A DNA stretch of 33,237 nt from a virus. The stretch spans positions 1 to 33,237 of the IMG/VR virus record IMGVR_UViG_3300044655_001004; one strand, given 5' to 3'. The notes under the pieces are model-generated. The model did no database searches. It was not told the DNA's origin and saw nothing but the letters and a program-made list of their open reading frames with translations. The position numbers and the translations under genes were made by a program. Positions 891 to 14,757 of the stretch are shown piece by piece (the stretch's first letter is position 1; every line of letters starts with the position of its first letter).

Positions 891-2702
891 TTATGCCGCT
901 TTGATTGGTATAACTTTTCTTTCTTTCTTCTGTGGGTTTAGAGTTTGTGGTTGTGCAGTATAATCATGACCAGATCCATCTGTGTGTCTAGCAGCCATCA
1001 CTTTATCTGGATGATTTACTTCTAGAACACCAGTTCTTCCGTGAGTATCGGCTTCTTCGTGTTTAATATCATTAACATCATGGAACATTTCACCATGTTC
1101 TACCTTTTCTCCCGGTGTAGCAGCCGTTGGACTGTTTACAATTGCTGCACCAACTCTTCTTCCAAATCTATCTCTATTGTTTCCAATATGTTTTGGATCA
1201 TATTCTCTTGGATCGAATCTAGCATCATGTTTATGACCATGTAGAGCAACATTATAATCCTGATAATGGATTCTATGGGCTTTCCCATTTATTTGCTTCA
1301 CAACATAACCATGTCCATGTGGATGATGATATCTGTCTTCTCCTTCGACTTTTGCGTGTCCTTCTAAATGTTCTCCTTCGTGTGGTTCTGCATGTAGATC
1401 ATATCTTCTAACAGTTTTAATATTTTTGATTGTATCATCTCTAAATTTAGTGGCTTTCTTCACATCTTCTTTCTTTTCTCCAGTCAATTTAGATTTTTGA
1501 CCAGGAGTTTTTTGATACTTCAATAACATCCCTTCGCCCTTAGAATCTTTGGCCTTTTTAGATCTTCCGCCAACGATTACATACTGATTTCTAGGATTAT
1601 CACCAGAAGTAGCATTACGGAGTTCTCTTTCACGTTTTATGTTGGATTTAGTAATTTTTCCATTTTTATGAATAGGACCAGTATCGGAACCGATTGTATA
1701 AACATTATGTTCTGGATCGTGAATGGTGCTTATATGTTCTTTTCCATAATTGAAAAGCATTACGTGATGATGTGCCGCATCTTTTGTGTCATCATCAGTC
1801 TTAATTTCGCCTTTCTTTATTTTGTGGAGGGCATTGTTAAGAGCATCTTTGCTTTCATCGGTAACATTAGTTCTTACTGCAATAGATTCCCCTTTCTTTC
1901 TTGCCTTCTTAGCATCTTCTAAAGTATGATGTGCAGCTAATAAATGATAATCTAAATGTGGTGAATGACCAGCACCATGTCCATGAGATTCATCTGTTCT
2001 TCTGGAATCATGTTGAATTTGTGAATCAAGATCTTGTTTAGCATAATTTTTTGTGAAATTATATGTTCCAAGCTGTGCTAAACATAATCCTTTTCTCTCT
2101 CCTTGTGGACCACCACAAGCAGCAGTTTGTTTATGACATGTATTAACCCAAGTTTCCTTATTACCATGTTGATGATAATTCCCAGATGCCATTCCTGTCG
2201 CGCCAAGAGTATGAGAAATTTGTCTTCCATTTTTATCAACAACACCTTCGCCTTGAATGGTGGCTAATTTTTTATTTGCGGTATATAATTTATTTTTTAC
2301 TGCGTGGTGTAAACCTTTTAATTGTTTTTCATTCAAAGGTTTATTTACATCGTCCAGTAATCCGTGAGCAACCGCCAATCTTCTTGTTGCACCTTCAATT
2401 TGAGATTTTCTTTCGTGCTCTGGTTTTGAAAAATGATTTTTTAAATGATCTTCGACAGATTGAATTCTTTCTTGACCTTTGATTGGAAGATCTGTATCCT
2501 TTGATTTACCGTATGCTTTGTCCAGATTTGCTCTATTTGCATCTCTAACTTTTCTAAGTTCAGATTTTTTCAATTCGGTTTTTTCATCTGCATCGGTTGG
2601 AGTATCATAATAAGTTTCATCTAGAAAATCATAATATGATAGCCACATGATGTCATCACTTACTATCAAAGATTCGTCTAGAAATTGTTTGAATTTTAAC
2701 AT
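891..2702 (-). CDS. His-rich putative internal head protein (603 aa)
   Basis: A strongly charged, histidine-rich 603-residue protein without membrane segments. It starts MLKFKQFLDES, with LDE at residues 8-10 matching the LxE cleavage rule of T4-type prohead proteases. This suggests, by inference only, a head-targeting peptide and packaging or ejection with DNA. Residues 172-215 hold SGN, W185, C189, C196-G and C207-LA..G, a cysteine layout vaguely like phage 'gene product 88' proteins; residues 262-283 continue with an Ala/Lys helix and an AVRTN strand. The C-terminal half has many His-Gly pairs. The protein shares its start and the SGN...W...C...CG block with the partial gene downstream. 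Start ATG 2702 is preceded by AGAGAG. It is transcribed from the late promoter at 2738-2745 and ended by the 839-879 hairpin. No enzymatic function can be assigned. Confidence 0.8.
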   Translation of the reverse strand: MLKFKQFLDESLIVSDDIMWLSYYDFLDETYYDTPTDADEKTELKKSELRKVRDANRANLDKAYGKSKDTDLPIKGQERIQSVEDHLKNHFSKPEHERKSQIEGATRRLAVAHGLLDDVNKPLNEKQLKGLHHAVKNKLYTANKKLATIQGEGVVDKNGRQISHTLGATGMASGNYHQHGNKETWVNTCHKQTAACGGPQGERKGLCLAQLGTYNFTKNYAKQDLDSQIQHDSRRTDESHGHGAGHSPHLDYHLLAAHHTLEDAKKARKKGESIAVRTNVTDESKDALNNALHKIKKGEIKTDDDTKDAAHHHVMLFNYGKEHISTIHDPEHNVYTIGSDTGPIHKNGKITKSNIKRERELRNATSGDNPRNQYVIVGGRSKKAKDSKGEGMLLKYQKTPGQKSKLTGEKKEDVKKATKFRDDTIKNIKTVRRYDLHAEPHEGEHLEGHAKVEGEDRYHHPHGHGYVVKQINGKAHRIHYQDYNVALHGHKHDARFDPREYDPKHIGNNRDRFGRRVGAAIVNSPTAATPGEKVEHGEMFHDVNDIKHEEADTHGRTGVLEVNHPDKVMAARHTDGSGHDYTAQPQTLNPQKKERKVIPIKAA

Positions 2703-2909: not shown

Positions 2910-3248
2910 ATGAAATTTAAATTAATTGCCAGTTTGTTATTATTAGCTTGTTCGTCTGTTTCGTTGGCTGAAACATGTACTGCCTCTTGGTATGGTGGTT
3001 CTTTTCATGGTAAAAAAACCGCATCTGGAAAACCTTTTAATACCCATGCTATGGTGGCTGCACATAAACGCTTTCCATTCGGAACCAAGGTATTAGTCAC
3101 AAACTTGACAAATAATAAACGAACTAAGGTTATTATTTTGGATCGCGGTCCTTTTGTAAGAGGAAGATGTATTGATCTTTCTCATGCGGCTAAAAGTGCT
3201 ATCGGAATGGGAGGAACTGCAAAAGTCTCCCTTGAAGTCATTAAGTAA
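2910..3248 (+). CDS. Secreted RlpA-like double-psi beta-barrel protein
   Basis: A 112-residue protein with a signal peptide (Lys-rich start, Leu-rich core residues 5-12) and an RlpA-type double-psi beta-barrel over residues 24-110. The signatures are SWYG (26-29), FHG, TASG (37-40), AAH (50-52), PFGT (56-59) and DRGPF (78-82) with GRCIDLS. RlpA proteins cut or bind denuded glycan strands at the septum. The Asp of DRGPF is present, but the Glu normally following TASG or TANG is Lys41, so lytic activity is doubtful. Cleavage could be after SLA20, or at C14 as a weak lipobox (LLAC). It lies alone between its own late promoter and a hairpin at 3288-3315, with SD AGGAG seven bases before ATG. Probably acts in the host periplasm late in infection; whether for lysis, entry of later phage or wall remodelling is unknown. 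Confidence 0.85.
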   Translation: MKFKLIASLLLLACSSVSLAETCTASWYGGSFHGKKTASGKPFNTHAMVAAHKRFPFGTKVLVTNLTNNKRTKVIILDRGPFVRGRCIDLSHAAKSAIGMGGTAKVSLEVIK

Positions 3249-5120: not shown

Positions 5121-5144
5121 GGGGGGCTTAAGCCCCCCTTTTTT
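5121..5144. terminator. Strong bidirectional terminator between convergent operons
   Basis: GGGGGGCTT-AAGCCCCCC (5121-5138), a perfect palindrome, followed by six T on the plus strand. It lies seven bases after the gp32 stop and touches the stop of the minus-strand gene ending at 5143. On the minus strand the exit side reads AATTATTTTA, so it probably also ends the long gp4-to-hydrolase transcript. Confidence 0.9.
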
Positions 5145-8100
5145 ATACTATTCTTATTACTGAATATTGAGCTTTTTGTAGAATCGATTCTTCATTCCTA
5201 ACACCCATCTGAATACCCATAGCTCCGGAACTCGATCCCGCTCTTTGATCACCAGATTTAAATCCGGGAGAACCACCACCAGAACCTCCACCTCCACCAC
5301 CAGCATTTCCTATGGCAGTAGAAGAACCACCACTACTGGAAGCAGATTCTCCACCACCAGAACTACCAGATCCCATCATAGACGAGAATGAGGACTGTAA
5401 CCCATCTAATGCTCCCCCCATCATAGAACTTCCTTCACTCATTAAAGAAGATGTTCCCAAAGCACTACCAATGCCAGAAACTCCCAAAGATTCTAACATT
5501 CCTCCAGAAGAATCTCCGTGTTGTTGCTTCATGGATGCTACATCATCCCCCGCTCCTTTTGAAGCAATTCCATCACCCATTCCAAATAAACTTCCAATAC
5601 CACCAAAAATAGCACCACCTAAATCTTTTCCAATTTTTCCCAATCCAGAAAGTCCTTCTCCTATATCCCCCATACTTCTTGGTTGAATTGGGGTGGATGT
5701 TCCACCACTCCCAGCACCAGTTTTCGGATCGAATGTTTCTCCACGGGCTTGTCTTTTTAAATATTCATCTTTGCCCATTCCACCCATAGTTGGGAATCCT
5801 TCTTCTCTTTGAATTCCTAAATTTTTCATCATCATTTCATCTAAAGAACCGCCATTACCACCTTCTCTTCCGGGATATTGACCAGTTCCTTCTTTTGAAA
5901 CTGTTGGATTAAATCCACCACCAAATCCTGTAACACCAAGACTTCCTAGAATTCCACCAACTCCTCCAGTCGATCCTAATGCTCCACCAAGCAATCCACT
6001 AACAGCATCTCCGATTCCACCACCACTAGAAATACTATTAAATAAACCACTCAATGCTCCACCACCAGCACTTCCTATAAGTCCACCCATAGGACCACCA
6101 AAAGTATTTCCAAGCAATCCTCCCATACCACCAAGGTTTCCGCCACCATTCATCATTCCGCTAAGATTTCCTAATAGTCCTCCAACTTGACCTATAGTTT
6201 TAGCTGTTCCACCAAATCCTGTGACACCAAGACCTCCTAACATTCCACCAATATTACCCATGCTACCCAGCATTCCAGGAATGCCAAATACATCTTCTCT
6301 TCTGTTGGGCATTCCACTACCATCGACACCACTTCTTCCTGGATAATTTCCTCCAAAACCTCTTAGAACACTTCCTAATCCACCAAGCATTCCACCACCC
6401 ATCATACCACCAACTCCACTAAGAACTCTTCCTAATCCACCTAAAGTACCAGAAGCACCGTTGCCAATTCCTCCCATTCCTGGAAATCCTGGAATTCCAA
6501 ACCCGAAACCATCTTCTCTTCTATTTGGCATTCCGCTACCATCAACTCCGCTTCTTCCCGGATAATTTCCTCCAAACCCTCCCATGCCACCAAATGTTCC
6601 CCTTCCCATTCCAAGCATTCCATTTACAGAATTTATAATGCTTCTAGGATCACCACCTTTCATTCCAGCAATTCCAGACATAATACTAGAAATACCACCA
6701 GACATTGTTCCAGCAGTAGAGAATATATTACCAAAAGAACCAAATGGATTATTTCCTTGTTGAGTCTGTGATCCAAAATTTTCCGAAACTAATGAAGAAC
6801 TCATATCTGCTTGTACATTATTTTCCGGAGCAGCAGTTGGTTGTTCGGTTGAAGTTTCATCTTCTTTAGATGCTGTCGGTGTCTCTTCTTTTTCATCACC
6901 CTTTTCAGCCATATCTCCTGTATTAGAAGCAATAGTTGATAAAAGATTCGTCATTCTCTCGAAATCCGGAGCATATGCTTTTCCTTTTTCTTCTCCACCA
7001 CCAAGTTCTGCAACTTTTTCATCGAATTTTGGTAATAGATTTTCTCCACCCATACCGCCACCAAGTCCACCTAAAATGGTTGCAAGACCACCAAATCCTG
7101 TCATTCCTTCAGAATCAGCTTCTGCTCCTAATTTTGCAAATGCTGCATCTAGAGCAGTTCCACCACTAGGAGTTGCTTCTTTTGATGCAGAAACGGGTTC
7201 TCTTATAACTGGTTCGTTGGTTTCCTCTTGTTCAGATTCCTCTTCTCCATATCTTCCTCCTTCTGGAAGTTGTTTTTCTAGTTTTGCGTAAGTTGATGAT
7301 TCTCCTTCTTTTGTAAATTTAGAATATTTTTCTGCAGCTTCTTTATTTGCAAAATTTACGTGAATGTGTCCACCAGTAGAATGTTTTGATGGATTTTTAT
7401 ATTCATTTATTATTTTAAAATCTTCTTCTGATAATCCAGAACCAATCAATTGTTGTTTAACGAAATTGGAAGCTTCGCTAGAATATTTTGCGTCTTTTAA
7501 AGAAAAGTCCAATCCTAATCCTTTTGTATGTTTTGATTTTGGATTGGCTTTTCCATGATATTCATCATTAAATGCGCTAAACCTATTAAGTCCTCCGGGA
7601 AGATCTTTTTCTTGGGCTTGAATGACTCGTGCAAGGTTTATTGTACCTTCTTCAGTTTCTCCTCCTTTAAATGCTTGACCGTCTAATCCCCCCTTCACTC
7701 TTAATTCCGAAGTTTTTACCATATTTTTTGAAGTTTCGTCGTTATCTTCTATGCCTGTCCACTTTTTGAGTTTGTCTATTCCTTTATCGACTAAAGATGG
7801 TTCTTCCTTTTTTGGAATTCCAGCAATAGAAGCATGTTCTCTATAGCCTTTTTTCCAAAAGTTTAAAAATTCTTCTGCTCCAAGAGCTTTTCTTCCAGGA
7901 ACATTGCTTTTAATGTTTCTTTGTAATGTTCCTGGCAATTGAGAAAAACTTCTCCCTTCTTTTGCATATTTTACTAAATCTATTGCCCCTTGTGGTCCTT
8001 GTTGATGAGCAATATATAACATTTCTGGAGTTGCTTCTATCCCAGCCTTCTCTAATATTTTTTTATTATCTAAAGATAATCGAGCAGCAGCCATTGCATT

Positions 8101-9072
8101 TGCTCTTGGATCGAATTCTTTTCCTCTAAGTCCATATGATTTTGCAGTACTTGGTATGAATTGATATAATCCAGCAGCTTTTGATCCCTTATTAAATGCA
8201 GTAGGATTTCCTTTTGACTCTATGTGTGCCATAGTTCTCAAATAGTTTTCATCTAATCCAGATTTTTCCGCAGTTTCTTTAATTATAGAAGCGATTTCCG
8301 GCTTGAATGAGAACTTTCCTTGTTTTGTGCCATATTCAACATCATCCCATCTTTTTATTGTCCCGCTCCCCGGTTTTCCCGGTTCTCCCAGCATTGGACC
8401 AGTTCTTGGACCATCACTAGGTTCTCGTTGAAATATTTTAGGAATTTTTCCACTACCATCATCAGTTCCTCCCGGAGCATTAGGAAAAAATCCTCCCAAT
8501 CCCGGAGAAATACTAGTTGATCCTAGCTTTTCAGCAGCCCAACTCAAAGCAGAAGAAACTGCTTTAAATCCAGCAACGGCAGCAACCAACGTTGCAATTG
8601 CTGGAGCAAACCCTCCAATAGCAGTAATCAATCCACCCATTTTTGGAATAAACGATCCGAATGCTCCAACCAACCCACCAATGGTGGACATAAAAGAACT
8701 ATCTTCTCTTTTACCTTCTCTTACGGCAGTAACTACTTGTTTTTGCGAATCTACCATTTGTTTCTGGAAGTCTTGTGGTTTGACCTGCAACTCCATTTGT
8801 CTTTCTTGATCTTCTTTTCTATTGAAGTTCAATTGTTGCATCAATACATCATAGATTCTATCTAGAGAATTAATAACTTTCTCTTGATTTACTATTTCCG
8901 TTTGGGTATTTTGCTGCGTTGTAGCAGGAGCGGCATTTACATTAACAACAATTGATCGACTTTCACCACCTCCCTCTTTTCCACCAACCGCAGACATAGC
9001 TGCTGGTAAATTAGCATTTGAAGTTTTTAATTGTCCTATCAATTGAGCAATTGATGTTCCTGTATCTGCCAT
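5143..9072 (-). CDS. Tail tape-measure candidate with transglycosylase and M15-like peptidase domains
   Basis: 1309 residues. Residues 1-120: Gln-rich helical N-terminus, probably coiled coil. 128-180: hydrophobic Gly/Ala segment fit to cross a membrane. 258-412: SLT-type lytic transglycosylase with catalytic E285 in HIESKGNP, then GLYQF (301-305) and a PSTAKSYGL motif. 450-585: M15/VanY-like zinc peptidase with H515, D522 and HIH 569-571. After about residue 620 the protein is a Gly/Met/Ser-rich low-complexity region with internal repeats. The first two domains should cut glycan strands and peptide cross-links during tail penetration. Position directly after gp26 and the gp51-like gene, two hydrolase domains and the hydrophobic segment all fit a tape measure; T4's gp29 is much shorter and lacks them, so this role is inferred. 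SD AGGAAA precedes ATG 9072. It ends at the shared terminator. Confidence 0.85.
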   Translation of the reverse strand: MADTGTSIAQLIGQLKTSNANLPAAMSAVGGKEGGGESRSIVVNVNAAPATTQQNTQTEIVNQEKVINSLDRIYDVLMQQLNFNRKEDQERQMELQVKPQDFQKQMVDSQKQVVTAVREGKREDSSFMSTIGGLVGAFGSFIPKMGGLITAIGGFAPAIATLVAAVAGFKAVSSALSWAAEKLGSTSISPGLGGFFPNAPGGTDDGSGKIPKIFQREPSDGPRTGPMLGEPGKPGSGTIKRWDDVEYGTKQGKFSFKPEIASIIKETAEKSGLDENYLRTMAHIESKGNPTAFNKGSKAAGLYQFIPSTAKSYGLRGKEFDPRANAMAAARLSLDNKKILEKAGIEATPEMLYIAHQQGPQGAIDLVKYAKEGRSFSQLPGTLQRNIKSNVPGRKALGAEEFLNFWKKGYREHASIAGIPKKEEPSLVDKGIDKLKKWTGIEDNDETSKNMVKTSELRVKGGLDGQAFKGGETEEGTINLARVIQAQEKDLPGGLNRFSAFNDEYHGKANPKSKHTKGLGLDFSLKDAKYSSEASNFVKQQLIGSGLSEEDFKIINEYKNPSKHSTGGHIHVNFANKEAAEKYSKFTKEGESSTYAKLEKQLPEGGRYGEEESEQEETNEPVIREPVSASKEATPSGGTALDAAFAKLGAEADSEGMTGFGGLATILGGLGGGMGGENLLPKFDEKVAELGGGEEKGKAYAPDFERMTNLLSTIASNTGDMAEKGDEKEETPTASKEDETSTEQPTAAPENNVQADMSSSLVSENFGSQTQQGNNPFGSFGNIFSTAGTMSGGISSIMSGIAGMKGGDPRSIINSVNGMLGMGRGTFGGMGGFGGNYPGRSGVDGSGMPNRREDGFGFGIPGFPGMGGIGNGASGTLGGLGRVLSGVGGMMGGGMLGGLGSVLRGFGGNYPGRSGVDGSGMPNRREDVFGIPGMLGSMGNIGGMLGGLGVTGFGGTAKTIGQVGGLLGNLSGMMNGGGNLGGMGGLLGNTFGGPMGGLIGSAGGGALSGLFNSISSGGGIGDAVSGLLGGALGSTGGVGGILGSLGVTGFGGGFNPTVSKEGTGQYPGREGGNGGSLDEMMMKNLGIQREEGFPTMGGMGKDEYLKRQARGETFDPKTGAGSGGTSTPIQPRSMGDIGEGLSGLGKIGKDLGGAIFGGIGSLFGMGDGIASKGAGDDVASMKQQHGDSSGGMLESLGVSGIGSALGTSSLMSEGSSMMGGALDGLQSSFSSMMGSGSSGGGESASSSGGSSTAIGNAGGGGGGSGGGSPGFKSGDQRAGSSSGAMGIQMGVRNEESILQKAQYSVIRIV
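6292..6580 (-). repeat. Two-copy protein repeat in the Gly-rich region
   Basis: A unit with FGGNYPGRSGVDGS then GMPNRRED occurs twice, about 216 bases apart (roughly 6515-6580 and 6295-6360). The DNA copies differ almost only at silent positions, so the peptide is being conserved. A degenerate third copy (YPGREGGNGG...REEGFP) lies nearer the C-terminus, around 5790-5880. Confidence 0.7.
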
Positions 9073-9081
9073 TGTAGTTTC

Positions 9082-9264
9082 CTATCTTTGTAATTTACTT
9101 AATCTTTCGTTTTCTTCCGCTATGTAATTTTCTAATTGGGAGACATAAACGGCTCTCTCCCAAGGAAGCATGTCTTCTAATTCACTTAGACTATACTTGT
9201 GATGCTGTATTAATATAAAGTTGGTTTTATAATAATTCTGCAAATTATCATGGCAAAAGATCAT
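9082..9264 (-). CDS. gp51: gp51-like baseplate hub assembly protein / tail chaperone partner
   Basis: A 60-residue protein: Asn/Tyr-rich start, HHKYSLSELEDMLPWERAVYVS (22-43; motifs SLSELEDMLPWER and VYVSQL), then a charged helix. I assign it to gp51-like proteins of T4 relatives by motif and by position after gp26; it is far shorter than T4 gp51. Its ATG (9264) overlaps the gp26 stop as ATGA, and its frame is -1 relative to gp26. No well-placed ribosome site precedes the ATG: the nearest, GAGGGA, is 17 bases away. Coupled initiation or frameshifting (tract at 9267-9276) must express it. It may act as a free protein, as the C-terminal part of a gp26 fusion, or both. Confidence 0.65.
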   Translation of the reverse strand: MIFCHDNLQNYYKTNFILIQHHKYSLSELEDMLPWERAVYVSQLENYIAEENERLSKLQR

Positions 9265-9989
9265 TCGAAAAAATTTTCGAGTCCCTCGATTTTGATGGTA
9301 TGATCAAAACCACATTTGGAACATTTAACATTTAATACCTTTTGAAGTTTAGGCATCTGTTCAAAGAATTTTTGAATTTTATTAAACTGATCCACATTTA
9401 GAGATTCGATAAAATCATTAAGTTCTTCTTTCTTGGTTTCTTTTGCATAATAGAACTGATCATCATCATAGATATAATCGATACAAGAAATAACAACATC
9501 AAAAACTGCTTTGGCAACGGAACTAGTATTTCTCATTTTTTCTAAAGTAGAATAATCTGGGAATTTCATTTTTACACCAACATTAGCAGTCAATGGAATG
9601 ACATCTTTATATTCTTCGGAATCCAATTTGATATCCAACAAATTATAAGTTAAATCTAATCTATTTTTACAAACTTCTCCTGTTTCTTCATCAATTGTAT
9701 TCTCGCAGCGATATTTCAAATCTACCTGTTCACCAACCGATCTTGCTCTCAGATTGATAAAAAAGAATTCAATATCAACTGCCGCCAAGGAATCAACATC
9801 AATTTCCGTGATACAACAATTTTTAATAATTTGTTTAATATTTTCATTAATGAAATCTGGTTTATCAGATTCCAAAGCCAATAATAAAATCTTTTGTTCT
9901 TTTACTGTAAATGGTCTAAACTTTACTTTTGTTTTAGATAAAGGCAATACTAAATCATAAACTGGTAAATTAATTTTTGGTAAACTCAT
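9261..9989 (-). CDS. gp26: gp26 baseplate hub subunit / tail assembly protein
   Basis: 242 residues matching the T4 gp26 family: LPKINLPVYDLVLPLSKTK at 3-21, KFRPFTVKEQKILLLALES at 23-41, and VDIEFFFINLRARSVGEQ at 71-88. Two cysteine pairs, C95/C107 and C223/C226 (CSKCG), could form a zinc ribbon. In T4, gp26 takes part in hub assembly. Here it stands before a small overlapping gene and a tape-measure-like gene, the order of G/GT chaperones and tape measure in other tailed phages. SD AGGAAA lies upstream of ATG 9989. Slightly longer than T4 gp26 (208). Confidence 0.85.
   Translation of the reverse strand: MSLPKINLPVYDLVLPLSKTKVKFRPFTVKEQKILLLALESDKPDFINENIKQIIKNCCITEIDVDSLAAVDIEFFFINLRARSVGEQVDLKYRCENTIDEETGEVCKNRLDLTYNLLDIKLDSEEYKDVIPLTANVGVKMKFPDYSTLEKMRNTSSVAKAVFDVVISCIDYIYDDDQFYYAKETKKEELNDFIESLNVDQFNKIQKFFEQMPKLQKVLNVKCSKCGFDHTIKIEGLENFFE
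9267..9276 (-). other. Candidate programmed -1 frameshift site joining gp26 to gp51-like frame
   Basis: In gp26 frame the mRNA reads GAA-AAT-TTT-TTC-GAA-TGA. This contains two overlapping canonical slippery heptamers, A-AAT-TTT (9276 to 9270) and T-TTT-TTC (9273 to 9267). A -1 slip on either continues as CGA (Arg), then ATG, the first codon of the gp51-like gene, with no stop, giving a fusion of about 302 residues. GAGGGA five bases upstream is SD-like. A weak 6-bp AT stem (9232-9237 with 9243-9248) lies downstream. Confidence 0.55.
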
Positions 9990-10035: not shown

Positions 10036-12000
10036 TTAAAATAATCCCAATGGATTTTGTATACCACTTCCAGGACTCAATACAACTGGTTTTGGATATT
10101 GATATGGAGGATTTTGTGCTTTTAATTCCGTTTCCAGATCTTTAAATGCTTGAGTAACTTCTGGTGGAGTTTTAATCCAATCAGAAAATTCAACTGTTTT
10201 TGTTTGTCCTTCTTGATTTGTATAATTTACACTATATTTAACTTCCATTAGATTTTCCTTTTGTATGACTGCTTTCGATGGAGCGGGTGGAATCTCTGGA
10301 ATTTTTGTATTATTTTTCAAAGCATCCATTATTTCATATGAAATTGTAGGAGTTTTTATTTCCGACTGCACAGATTTCGATTTACTAACTCCATTATATG
10401 TAAATGTCACGTTAGTAGTTAAAATTTGAGTAGCAGGAGGCTTTATCTCTGGTGGCTTTTCTGGTGGTGGTGCTACTGGTCTAAATCCAGAATCATCAGC
10501 TATCTCTGGTGGCTTTTCTGGTGGTGGTGCTACTGGTCTAAATCCAGAATCATCAGCTATCTCTGGTGGCTTTTCTGGTGGTGCTACTGGTCTAAATCCA
10601 GAATCATCGGCTATCTCTGGCGGCTTTTCTGGTGGTGGTGCTACTGGTCTAAATCCAGAATCATCAGCTATCTCTGGTGGCTTTTCTGGTGGTGGTGCTA
10701 CTGGTAATGGATCAGAAACTTCCGGAGGCTTTTCTGGTGGTGGTGCTACTGGTCTAAATCCAGAATCATCAGCTATCTCTGGAGGCTTTGAAGGCGCTGG
10801 TGTTGGAACTAAAGGAATAGAAATCTCTGGTGGCTTTGAAGGCGCTGGTGTTGGAACTAAAGGAATAGAAATCTCTGGTGGCTTTAGTGGAGATATAGGT
10901 GCTACAGGTAATGGATCAGAAATCTCTGGTGGCTTTTCTGGTGGTGGTGTTGGAACTAAAGGAATAGAAATCTCTGGTGGCTTTAGTGGAGATATAGGTG
11001 CTATAGGCAATGGATCAGAAATCTCTGGTGGCTTTTCTGGTGGTGGTGCTACTGGTCTAAATCCAGAATCATCAGCTATCTCTGGTGGCTTTGAAGGCGC
11101 TGGTGTTGGAACTAAAGGAATAGAAATCTCAGGTGGCTTTAGTGGAGATATAGGTGCTATAGGTAATGGATCAGAAATCTCAGGTGGCTTTGAAGGCGCT
11201 GGTGTTGGAACTAAAGCAATAGAAATCTCAGGTGGCTTTGAAGGCGCTGGTGTTGGAACTAAAGGAATAGAAATCTCAGGTTGATTACTTGGAGATGTAT
11301 TATTGTTTGGAGAATTTTCTTTTTTCTCATTTGGCGTCGGCGGTTTTGGTGGTGGTAATACTGGAGGTTTCAATGCTGCATTGTCTTTTGCTTTTTTAGA
11401 TAATGTTTCCACCAAAGATTGCCTTTGTTGTTCTTGGCTCAATTCTCCAGAAGAAGATCCTCCAGGGAATACTTTGAAATATCGATAAGCTAGAACTACA
11501 TTTAATCTGTTATAATCATTTACTTGCGCCCAACTTAAAGGCATTGAATATACTTCTGCCGGAAAAGCATCTACCAAATATACTGTGTATGCCTCTTTTC
11601 CATCCAATGACATTTGCGTGATTTTAATATCTGTGCAATAATTAACTTTATATTCAAAATCGAACTTAACTCCATTGTGTTGTTTTCCAGATATAATTTC
11701 CATCCAAGCATCAAAAAAAGTTTTTTCTTTCATATCATCTCCGCAAATGAATACCATTGCAGATTTATTATATGTATTTTGGACTGGATAATGTTCAATT
11801 GGACCGTATGTTTTTTGATCTATGAGAACAAATGCTCTTGCCGGTAATTCCGCCTGTTCGCATCGAAATTTTGCTATTGATCCACCACCAACCGCTCCTG
11901 CCAATTTTGCTGGAGGGATTATCTCGACTTCAAAATTACATGGTCGGGATAACTCGGTTTTAAATGATGAAATAAATTCATTTATGTTTGCGACTGCCAT
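10036..12000 (-). CDS. Tail-tube-family protein (gp54/gp19-like) with proline-rich repeat arm
   Basis: 654 residues. 1-182 is a tail-tube fold resembling T4 gp54/gp19: RPCNFEVEI (19-27), FRCEQAELPARAF, TFFDAWMEIISG, then VDAFPAEVYSMPLSW and NRLNVVLAYRYFKV. I favour gp54, the tube initiator, because it lies with gp26 and gp51-like genes; gp19 itself is less likely. 183-243 is a Gln/Pro/Asn linker. 244-519 is 16 tandem units of 16-19 residues ending KPPE[IV]. 520-654 holds two copies of a short beta motif (TFTYNGVSKSKSVQ...KTP and SVNYTNQEGQTKTVEF...KTP). The repeats would make an extended stiff polyproline-like arm; a decorating or host-surface role is speculative. SD AGGAAC precedes ATG 12000. 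Confidence 0.8.
   Translation of the reverse strand: MAVANINEFISSFKTELSRPCNFEVEIIPPAKLAGAVGGGSIAKFRCEQAELPARAFVLIDQKTYGPIEHYPVQNTYNKSAMVFICGDDMKEKTFFDAWMEIISGKQHNGVKFDFEYKVNYCTDIKITQMSLDGKEAYTVYLVDAFPAEVYSMPLSWAQVNDYNRLNVVLAYRYFKVFPGGSSSGELSQEQQRQSLVETLSKKAKDNAALKPPVLPPPKPPTPNEKKENSPNNNTSPSNQPEISIPLVPTPAPSKPPEISIALVPTPAPSKPPEISDPLPIAPISPLKPPEISIPLVPTPAPSKPPEIADDSGFRPVAPPPEKPPEISDPLPIAPISPLKPPEISIPLVPTPPPEKPPEISDPLPVAPISPLKPPEISIPLVPTPAPSKPPEISIPLVPTPAPSKPPEIADDSGFRPVAPPPEKPPEVSDPLPVAPPPEKPPEIADDSGFRPVAPPPEKPPEIADDSGFRPVAPPEKPPEIADDSGFRPVAPPPEKPPEIADDSGFRPVAPPPEKPPEIKPPATQILTTNVTFTYNGVSKSKSVQSEIKTPTISYEIMDALKNNTKIPEIPPAPSKAVIQKENLMEVKYSVNYTNQEGQTKTVEFSDWIKTPPEVTQAFKDLETELKAQNPPYQYPKPVVLSPGSGIQNPLGLF
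10444..11271 (-). repeat. 16 mosaic tandem repeats coding KPPEI-ending cassettes
   Basis: 828 bases, 276 codons. There are three cassette types: A (SIPLVPTPAPSKPPEI, 16 aa), B (SDPLPIAPISPLKPPEI, 17 aa) and C (ADDSGFRPVAPPPEKPPEI, 19 aa). Order: A A B A C B A/C B A A C B/C C C C C. Units 7 and 12 are hybrids, and unit 14 lacks one Pro codon. DNA copies are nearly identical, so recombination or slippage is recent. Confidence 0.95.
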
Positions 12001-14379: not shown

Positions 14380-14757
14380 ATGTTTTCTATAACTACAAAG
14401 CCAACAGAGGAAACCAGACAAAAAATGTCCGAAGTTAAGAAAGGAAAAGAGAGTACATTTAAGGGTAAATCGCAACCCGAAAGTGCAAAATTAAAAATTA
14501 GTATTTCCTCAAAAAAATCTTGGGAAAACGAAGAAACCAAAAAGAAAATGAGAAATAAAGGGAATTCAATTGAGATTTTAGATATGAATATGAATAGAAT
14601 TGGAATTTTGAATGGAAATTATGAGATGAAAGAAAAAGGATTTAATCTTTCTTGTGTACATAAAGTTATATCTGGAAAATATTCCCAATATAAAGGATAT
14701 ATCTTTAGAAAACTTTTAGAAAAACAAGAATCATATTTAGATATAACGGTCGTATAA
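14380..14757 (+). CDS. Homing-endonuclease relic: NUMOD DNA-binding modules only
   Basis: 125 residues with nuclease-associated modular DNA-binding motifs and no catalytic domain. Residues 8-30 (TEETRQKMSEVKKGK, FKGK) and 37-58 (KLKISISSKKSWENEETKKKM) are NUMOD3-like; 64-112 (a GNYEMKEKGFNLSCVHKVISGK helix-turn-helix, then YKGYIFRKL) is NUMOD1/IENR1-like. GIY-YIG or HNH motifs are absent, and only 31 bases separate it from gp48, so the nuclease part is not hidden upstream. It interrupts the structural operon between gp48 and gp53, as free-standing homing genes do in T4 relatives. SD AAGGA at 14370-14374 is good, so it may still be expressed, perhaps as a DNA-binding protein. Confidence 0.8.
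   Translation: MFSITTKPTEETRQKMSEVKKGKESTFKGKSQPESAKLKISISSKKSWENEETKKKMRNKGNSIEILDMNMNRIGILNGNYEMKEKGFNLSCVHKVISGKYSQYKGYIFRKLLEKQESYLDITVV

Follow-up and report, generated by a model that had tools for sequence, protein, structure and literature searches.

The question raised by this locus is whether gene 26 of a T4-like phage codes for one tail assembly chaperone or for two. The locus lies in a window of 33,237 nt, which is the whole stretch of DNA analyzed (IMG/VR record IMGVR_UViG_3300044655_001004) and to which all locus coordinates refer, and it is organized along the minus strand as a gp26-like gene, a small gp51-like frame, and a 1309-aa tape-measure-like gene, in that order. The gp26-like gene (9261 to 9989, minus strand) codes for a 242-aa protein that matches PF12322 (E 3e-60) and phrog_150 (E 1e-67) and that, from these matches and the resemblance of residues 1 to 87 of its AlphaFold2 model to solved chaperone structures, is a putative short tail assembly chaperone (TAC-N, the equivalent of lambda gpG). 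The gp51-like frame (9082 to 9264, minus strand; 60 aa counted from its ATG) has a match to phrog_634 (E 2e-23), a family annotated as "baseplate hub assembly catalyst." A further match, to the C-terminal end of phrog_150, was a first hint that gp26 and gp51 are one protein elsewhere; by these family matches (PF12322, phrog_150, and phrog_634), both domains are homologous to the T4 gp26/gp51 family. The 1309-aa open reading frame (ORF; 5143 to 9072, minus strand) begins 9 nt downstream of the gp51-like frame, matches lytic tail protein phrogs, and contains an SLT transglycosylase domain at residues 263 to 332 (PF01464, E 7e-11); its position and length suggest that it is the tape measure gene. 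The C-terminal half of its product is very Gly-rich, and the SLT domain is embedded in the protein. Rfam and tRNA scans of the 33,237-nt window gave no matches.

The 3' end of gene 26 reads GAG GGA CTC GAA AAT TTT TTC GAA TGA, with the stop codon at 9263 to 9261, and contains a slippery heptamer, T TTT TTC (9267 to 9273, minus strand), that fits X XXY YYZ in the zero-frame phase and lies one codon before the stop. A second heptamer, A AAT TTT (9270 to 9276, minus strand), overlaps it in the same phase, and both had been recognized as in-phase X XXY YYZ sequences in a preliminary description of this DNA. The −1 frame is open from about position 9303, and a ribosome slipping by −1 on T TTT TTC would next read CGA (Arg), then the ATG at 9264 to 9262, and would meet no stop until 9084 to 9082. 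The predicted fusion is thus 241 + 1 + 60 = 302 residues in length with a junction reading ...FF-R-MIFCHDNL..., and the minus-strand sequence bears out the earlier claim of a stop-free fusion of about 302 residues entered through a single Arg codon. On the sequence comparisons that follow, gene 26 of this T4-like phage very probably makes both a short and a long chaperone by −1 ribosomal frameshifting.

Related loci were taken from IMG/VR and phage records, and frameshift-type contigs long enough to judge were counted. In all 179 of 179 related viral contigs, the frame that encodes the gp51 domain is −1 with respect to that of gp26, and it is +1 in none. When the set is thinned to 99 representatives sharing <80% gp26 identity, an in-phase T TTT TTN is present in 98 of them, and it is present in 53/54 and 30/31 representatives at further cutoffs of 60% and 50%. 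The 98 carriers have TTTTTTC (74), TTTTTTT (21), or TTTTTTA (3), and in most of them exactly one codon separates the heptamer from the stop. The residue preceding the Phe-Phe varies (Ser, Asn, Asp, Ala, or Gly) and its codon is always NNT, a constraint that, judged against the genes' own codon usage and assuming independence, has log10 P values of −20.5, −10.9, and −5.2 at the 80%, 60%, and 50% cutoffs. At other FF or FL dipeptides in the same genes, T TTT TTN is found in only 24 of 321 cases, and the heptamer at the junction is therefore not a matter of chance. The A AAT TTT heptamer is present in only about a fifth of representatives, and only where an xxA AAT codon pair occurs by coincidence, so that of the "double" slippery site proposed initially, T TTT TTN stands and A AAT TTT is incidental. 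The sole representative without T TTT TTN (L012, 3001 to 3675) reads GAT CTT TTT ACG TAA with its gp51 domain still in the −1 frame, and it may use a different slip site.

The best-surviving alternative is that gp51 is a separate 60-aa protein, translated by termination-reinitiation at the ATGA (9261 to 9264, minus strand) in which the gp26 stop overlaps an ATG. This overlap is common to this phage, its 88%-identical relatives (L003 to L006), and few others, and an NTGA overlap is present in only 9 of 98 representatives; when the junction is aligned across relatives, as the preliminary description had proposed, the heptamer, its phase, and the −1 frame are kept and the ATGA overlap is not. It is thus a lineage-specific feature that is not conserved and is not needed for the frameshift reading. 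No ATG, GTG, or TTG is found in the first codons of the −1 frame in 70 of the 98 representatives, yet conservation of both the −1 frame and the domain reaches as far as the slip site. The homology begins directly after the Phe-Phe, as FF[R/Q]xxxxHxxLxxYYxxNFxLMQHHKYSLTELENMIPWER, and is ungapped in nearly all representatives. With approximately 70% of representatives devoid of a start codon near the junction, only frameshifting could express the whole gp51 domain. Where starts do exist, none among the 98 representatives is preceded by a Shine-Dalgarno (SD)-like 4-mer at initiation spacing, and this includes the ATG at 9264 to 9262 in this phage, for which the lack of a well-placed ribosome site had already been pointed out. 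Termination-reinitiation also leaves the conservation of T TTT TTN unexplained, and as the general route to gp51 it has only a slim chance of being correct, but it could supply a minor additional 60-aa product in this particular lineage. Public annotations often miss or truncate gp51, with the region left empty in S-CAM8 and DSL-LC03 and begun at an internal ATG in Syn33 and Melnitz-3.

The frameshift reading is further favored by sequences upstream of the slip site. An SD-like GAGGGA (9282 to 9287, minus strand) is a candidate frameshift stimulator, and its GAGG (9287 to 9284) is separated from the T TTT TTC heptamer by 10 nt. The same spacing separates the SD-like element from the slippery site in dnaX, and the earlier view that the GAGGGA lies closer than in dnaX does not hold for the conserved heptamer. 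The GAGG is about 19 nt from the ATG and so is too far away to serve initiation. A conserved "EGL" has its Glu five codons ahead of the first slip-site Phe, and this Glu is encoded by GAG in 53 of 78 representatives, compared with 21.5% elsewhere in these genes; anti-SD pairing upstream of the slip site is stronger than the synonymous expectation (P = 1e-8). This codon enrichment also bears on the possibility that a fusion mRNA is made by transcriptional slippage on the run of six or seven Ts, with no ribosomal frameshifting. The run is homopolymeric, but polymerase slippage needs neither an in-phase heptamer nor an upstream SD-like codon, whereas the in-phase placement (98/98) and the enriched SD-like codon both fit ribosomal slippage. 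Six or seven Ts are also short for productive transcriptional slippage, and the chance that it accounts for the fusion is slimmer still than that of reinitiation.

Downstream of the slip site, a conserved hairpin or pseudoknot was considered as a stimulator and rejected, as no consensus RNA structure was found across the whole set or in the clade of this phage; the downstream region of this phage itself has a z of −0.33, in agreement with the initial remark that no strong structure is visible. Compared with shuffled sequences, the +6 to +70 regions do have a slight average gain in folding stability (mean z −1.55, n = 53, P = 2e-6). Three relatives (L056, L138, and L182) have strong lineage-specific hairpins of −14 to −17 kcal/mol, approximately 9 to 50 nt downstream of the slip site as counted from its first Phe codon, and these are absent from the clade of this phage.

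T4 itself is organized differently, with genes 26 and 51 on opposite strands. T4 gp51 (249 aa) contains a complete PF12322 domain (residues 1 to 201, E 4e-52) followed in frame by the gp51 domain; its domain order is that of the predicted fusion, and T4 gp26 corresponds to the short form. T4 thus has two paralogous genes and no frameshift, whereas this phage has one gene 26 and a predicted −1 slip. Relatives lacking the heptamer, to which the preliminary description had drawn attention as a check on the frameshift, behave accordingly, and phages of the T4 type have a gene, gene 51, that encodes the fusion without a shift. These loci also leave next to no room for the idea that the T run merely reflects a conserved Phe-Phe at the gp26 C terminus and that the neighboring frames have no translational link, because, although several T4-type gp26 proteins retain Phe-Phe without any frameshift, it is mostly encoded in the T4-type loci examined by TTC TTT after GAG or GAA, with T TTT TTN absent, and even in frameshift-type genes the other FF and FL dipeptides rarely carry the heptamer. 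PF12322 is present once in frameshift-type records, including the full records of S-CAM8, DSL-LC03, Melnitz-3, and Desulfovibrio phage 7757, and twice in T4, Phi1, and Campylobacter WX1; a single copy is present in the 33-kb fragment analyzed here, which may be incomplete. No record compared has both the slippery site and a second PF12322 gene copy. It seems reasonably likely, if well short of assured, that U UUU UUN drives frameshifting across this large phage group together with a dnaX-like stimulator that is under selection, the internal SD-like GAGG located 10 nt upstream, and largely without conserved 3' structure. In this view, T4 has exchanged frameshifting for a second copy of the gene in which the fusion is permanently in frame, the slippery site and second copy being mutually exclusive.

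In the frameshift reading, most ribosomes would stop at the TGA at 9263 to 9261 to give the 242-aa short chaperone (TAC-N). A fraction would slip back one base by tandem re-pairing of the P- and A-site tRNA-Phe on U UUU UUC, helped by the internal SD-like GAGG 10 nt upstream, and would then read Arg and continue into the gp51 domain to give the 302-aa long chaperone (TAC-NC, the equivalent of lambda gpGT). By analogy with lambda gpG and gpGT, which coat the tape measure and recruit tube subunits (PMC5009743), coating of the tape measure protein would fall to the short form, and recruitment of tail tube subunits to the long form by way of its C-terminal domain. We infer the slip itself, its efficiency, the action of the stimulator, and the binding to tape measure and tube proteins, and the chaperone roles would be carried over from lambda.

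The predicted structure of gp26 is consistent with a chaperone. Among the PDB structures re-aligned with VIA-align, the three best matches of its AlphaFold2 model (pLDDT 87) are 3FGX (Z 8.0, root mean square deviation [rmsd] 3.6, 85 residues aligned), HK97 gp13 (2OB9; Z 7.4, rmsd 4.2, 84 residues), and YqbN (3KLU; Z 7.0, rmsd 4.2, 85 residues), all of which are named as phage tail assembly chaperones in PMC9603447. The fourth is the PICI protein 5IR0 (Z 5.4), and the next unrelated structure has a Z of 3.2. These matches are limited to the first ∼90 residues and lie in a Z range of 7 to 8 that can be nonspecific, and they argue with moderate strength that the short form has a chaperone fold. 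A gp26 profile has no significant match among PDB sequences, and a Foldseek comparison of the model to the PDB gave none at E ≤ 0.001, with 3FGX, 2OB9, and 3KLU among the weak hits. VIA-align of a T4-type gp51 model returned no chaperone, which we do not count against the chaperone reading; in this model, the C-terminal domain is composed of three helices after the junction helix.

The analogy to lambda G/GT proposed at the outset is thus supported by the structural match, and it extends to a short and a long chaperone predicted from one gene with a −1 slip near its 3' end. Lambda G/GT precedes the tape measure gene H, and gene 26 is directly upstream of a long gene whose tape measure role is suggested by position and length. 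The lambda slippery site is G-rich, unlike the T TTT TTC here, and lambda gpG is smaller than gp26; no sequence relation between gp26 and lambda gpG was found in the family scans. The abstract of the 2022 study by Vladimirov and colleagues reportedly states that frameshifting appears conserved in several T4-like groups, with T4 relying on its genes 26 and 51. The preliminary description had regarded the arrangement as undescribed for gp26/gp51, which is incorrect, as Vladimirov, Gautam, and Davidson (Virology 2022, 566:9-15) identified T4-like chaperone genes and are cited for the short-plus-fused two-gene form in the PRFect paper (PMC10885494) and, in the Adele paper (PMC12846349), for poly-T slippery sequences in the TAC-N genes of T4-like phages. 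As represented in these citing papers, the genes are the same and have the same poly-T signal near the 3' end of TAC-N, with no difference in kind; the phage here is an uncultured one that had not been described. In reviews as late as 2016, T4 had been listed as the exception to the conserved tail frameshift (Atkins et al., 2016; PMC5009743). The site is, judging from the conservation described above, almost certainly real and not new in kind, being another case of the lambda G/GT strategy, which was known from phage tails at large and, since 2022, from T4-like phages. The 2022 account gains support from this locus: among the T4-like phages examined, the marine and freshwater ones not of the T4 type have the frameshift throughout, and the two-gene arrangement of T4 is the alternative solution. 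Our own calculations comprise the statistics, the SD-like enrichment, and the copy-number tally, any of which the 2022 study may already contain. A further comparison is the TAC gene of phage Adele and of Vandenendeviridae/Andersonviridae phages, which likewise has a −1 shift, at a conserved GTTTTT, and whose −1 frame stays open through a stretch annotated as "intergenic," although these phage families differ from this T4-like phage (PMC12846349).

Other genes in the window also have features of note. A 603-aa ORF (891 to 2702, minus strand) is without a Pfam or PHROG match, and a secreted-looking 112-aa DPBB/RlpA-like protein (2910 to 3248, plus strand; PF03330) possibly has a lytic or cell wall function. 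A 125-aa ORF with a NUMOD3 motif (14380 to 14757, plus strand; PF07460) is likely a homing-endonuclease-type gene or a remnant of one and is flanked by genes for a gp48-like tube cap and for a baseplate wedge. The gp19-like tail tube protein (654 aa; 10036 to 12000, minus strand; phrog_45 in residues 4 to 197) has a long repeat extension and a separate C-terminal stretch, an unusual make-up for a tail tube protein; the repeats (10444 to 11296) are tandem Pro-rich units of PPEKPPEI(A/S)DDSGFRPVAP and similar sequences, with a period of 48 to 57 nt and more than 10 copies.
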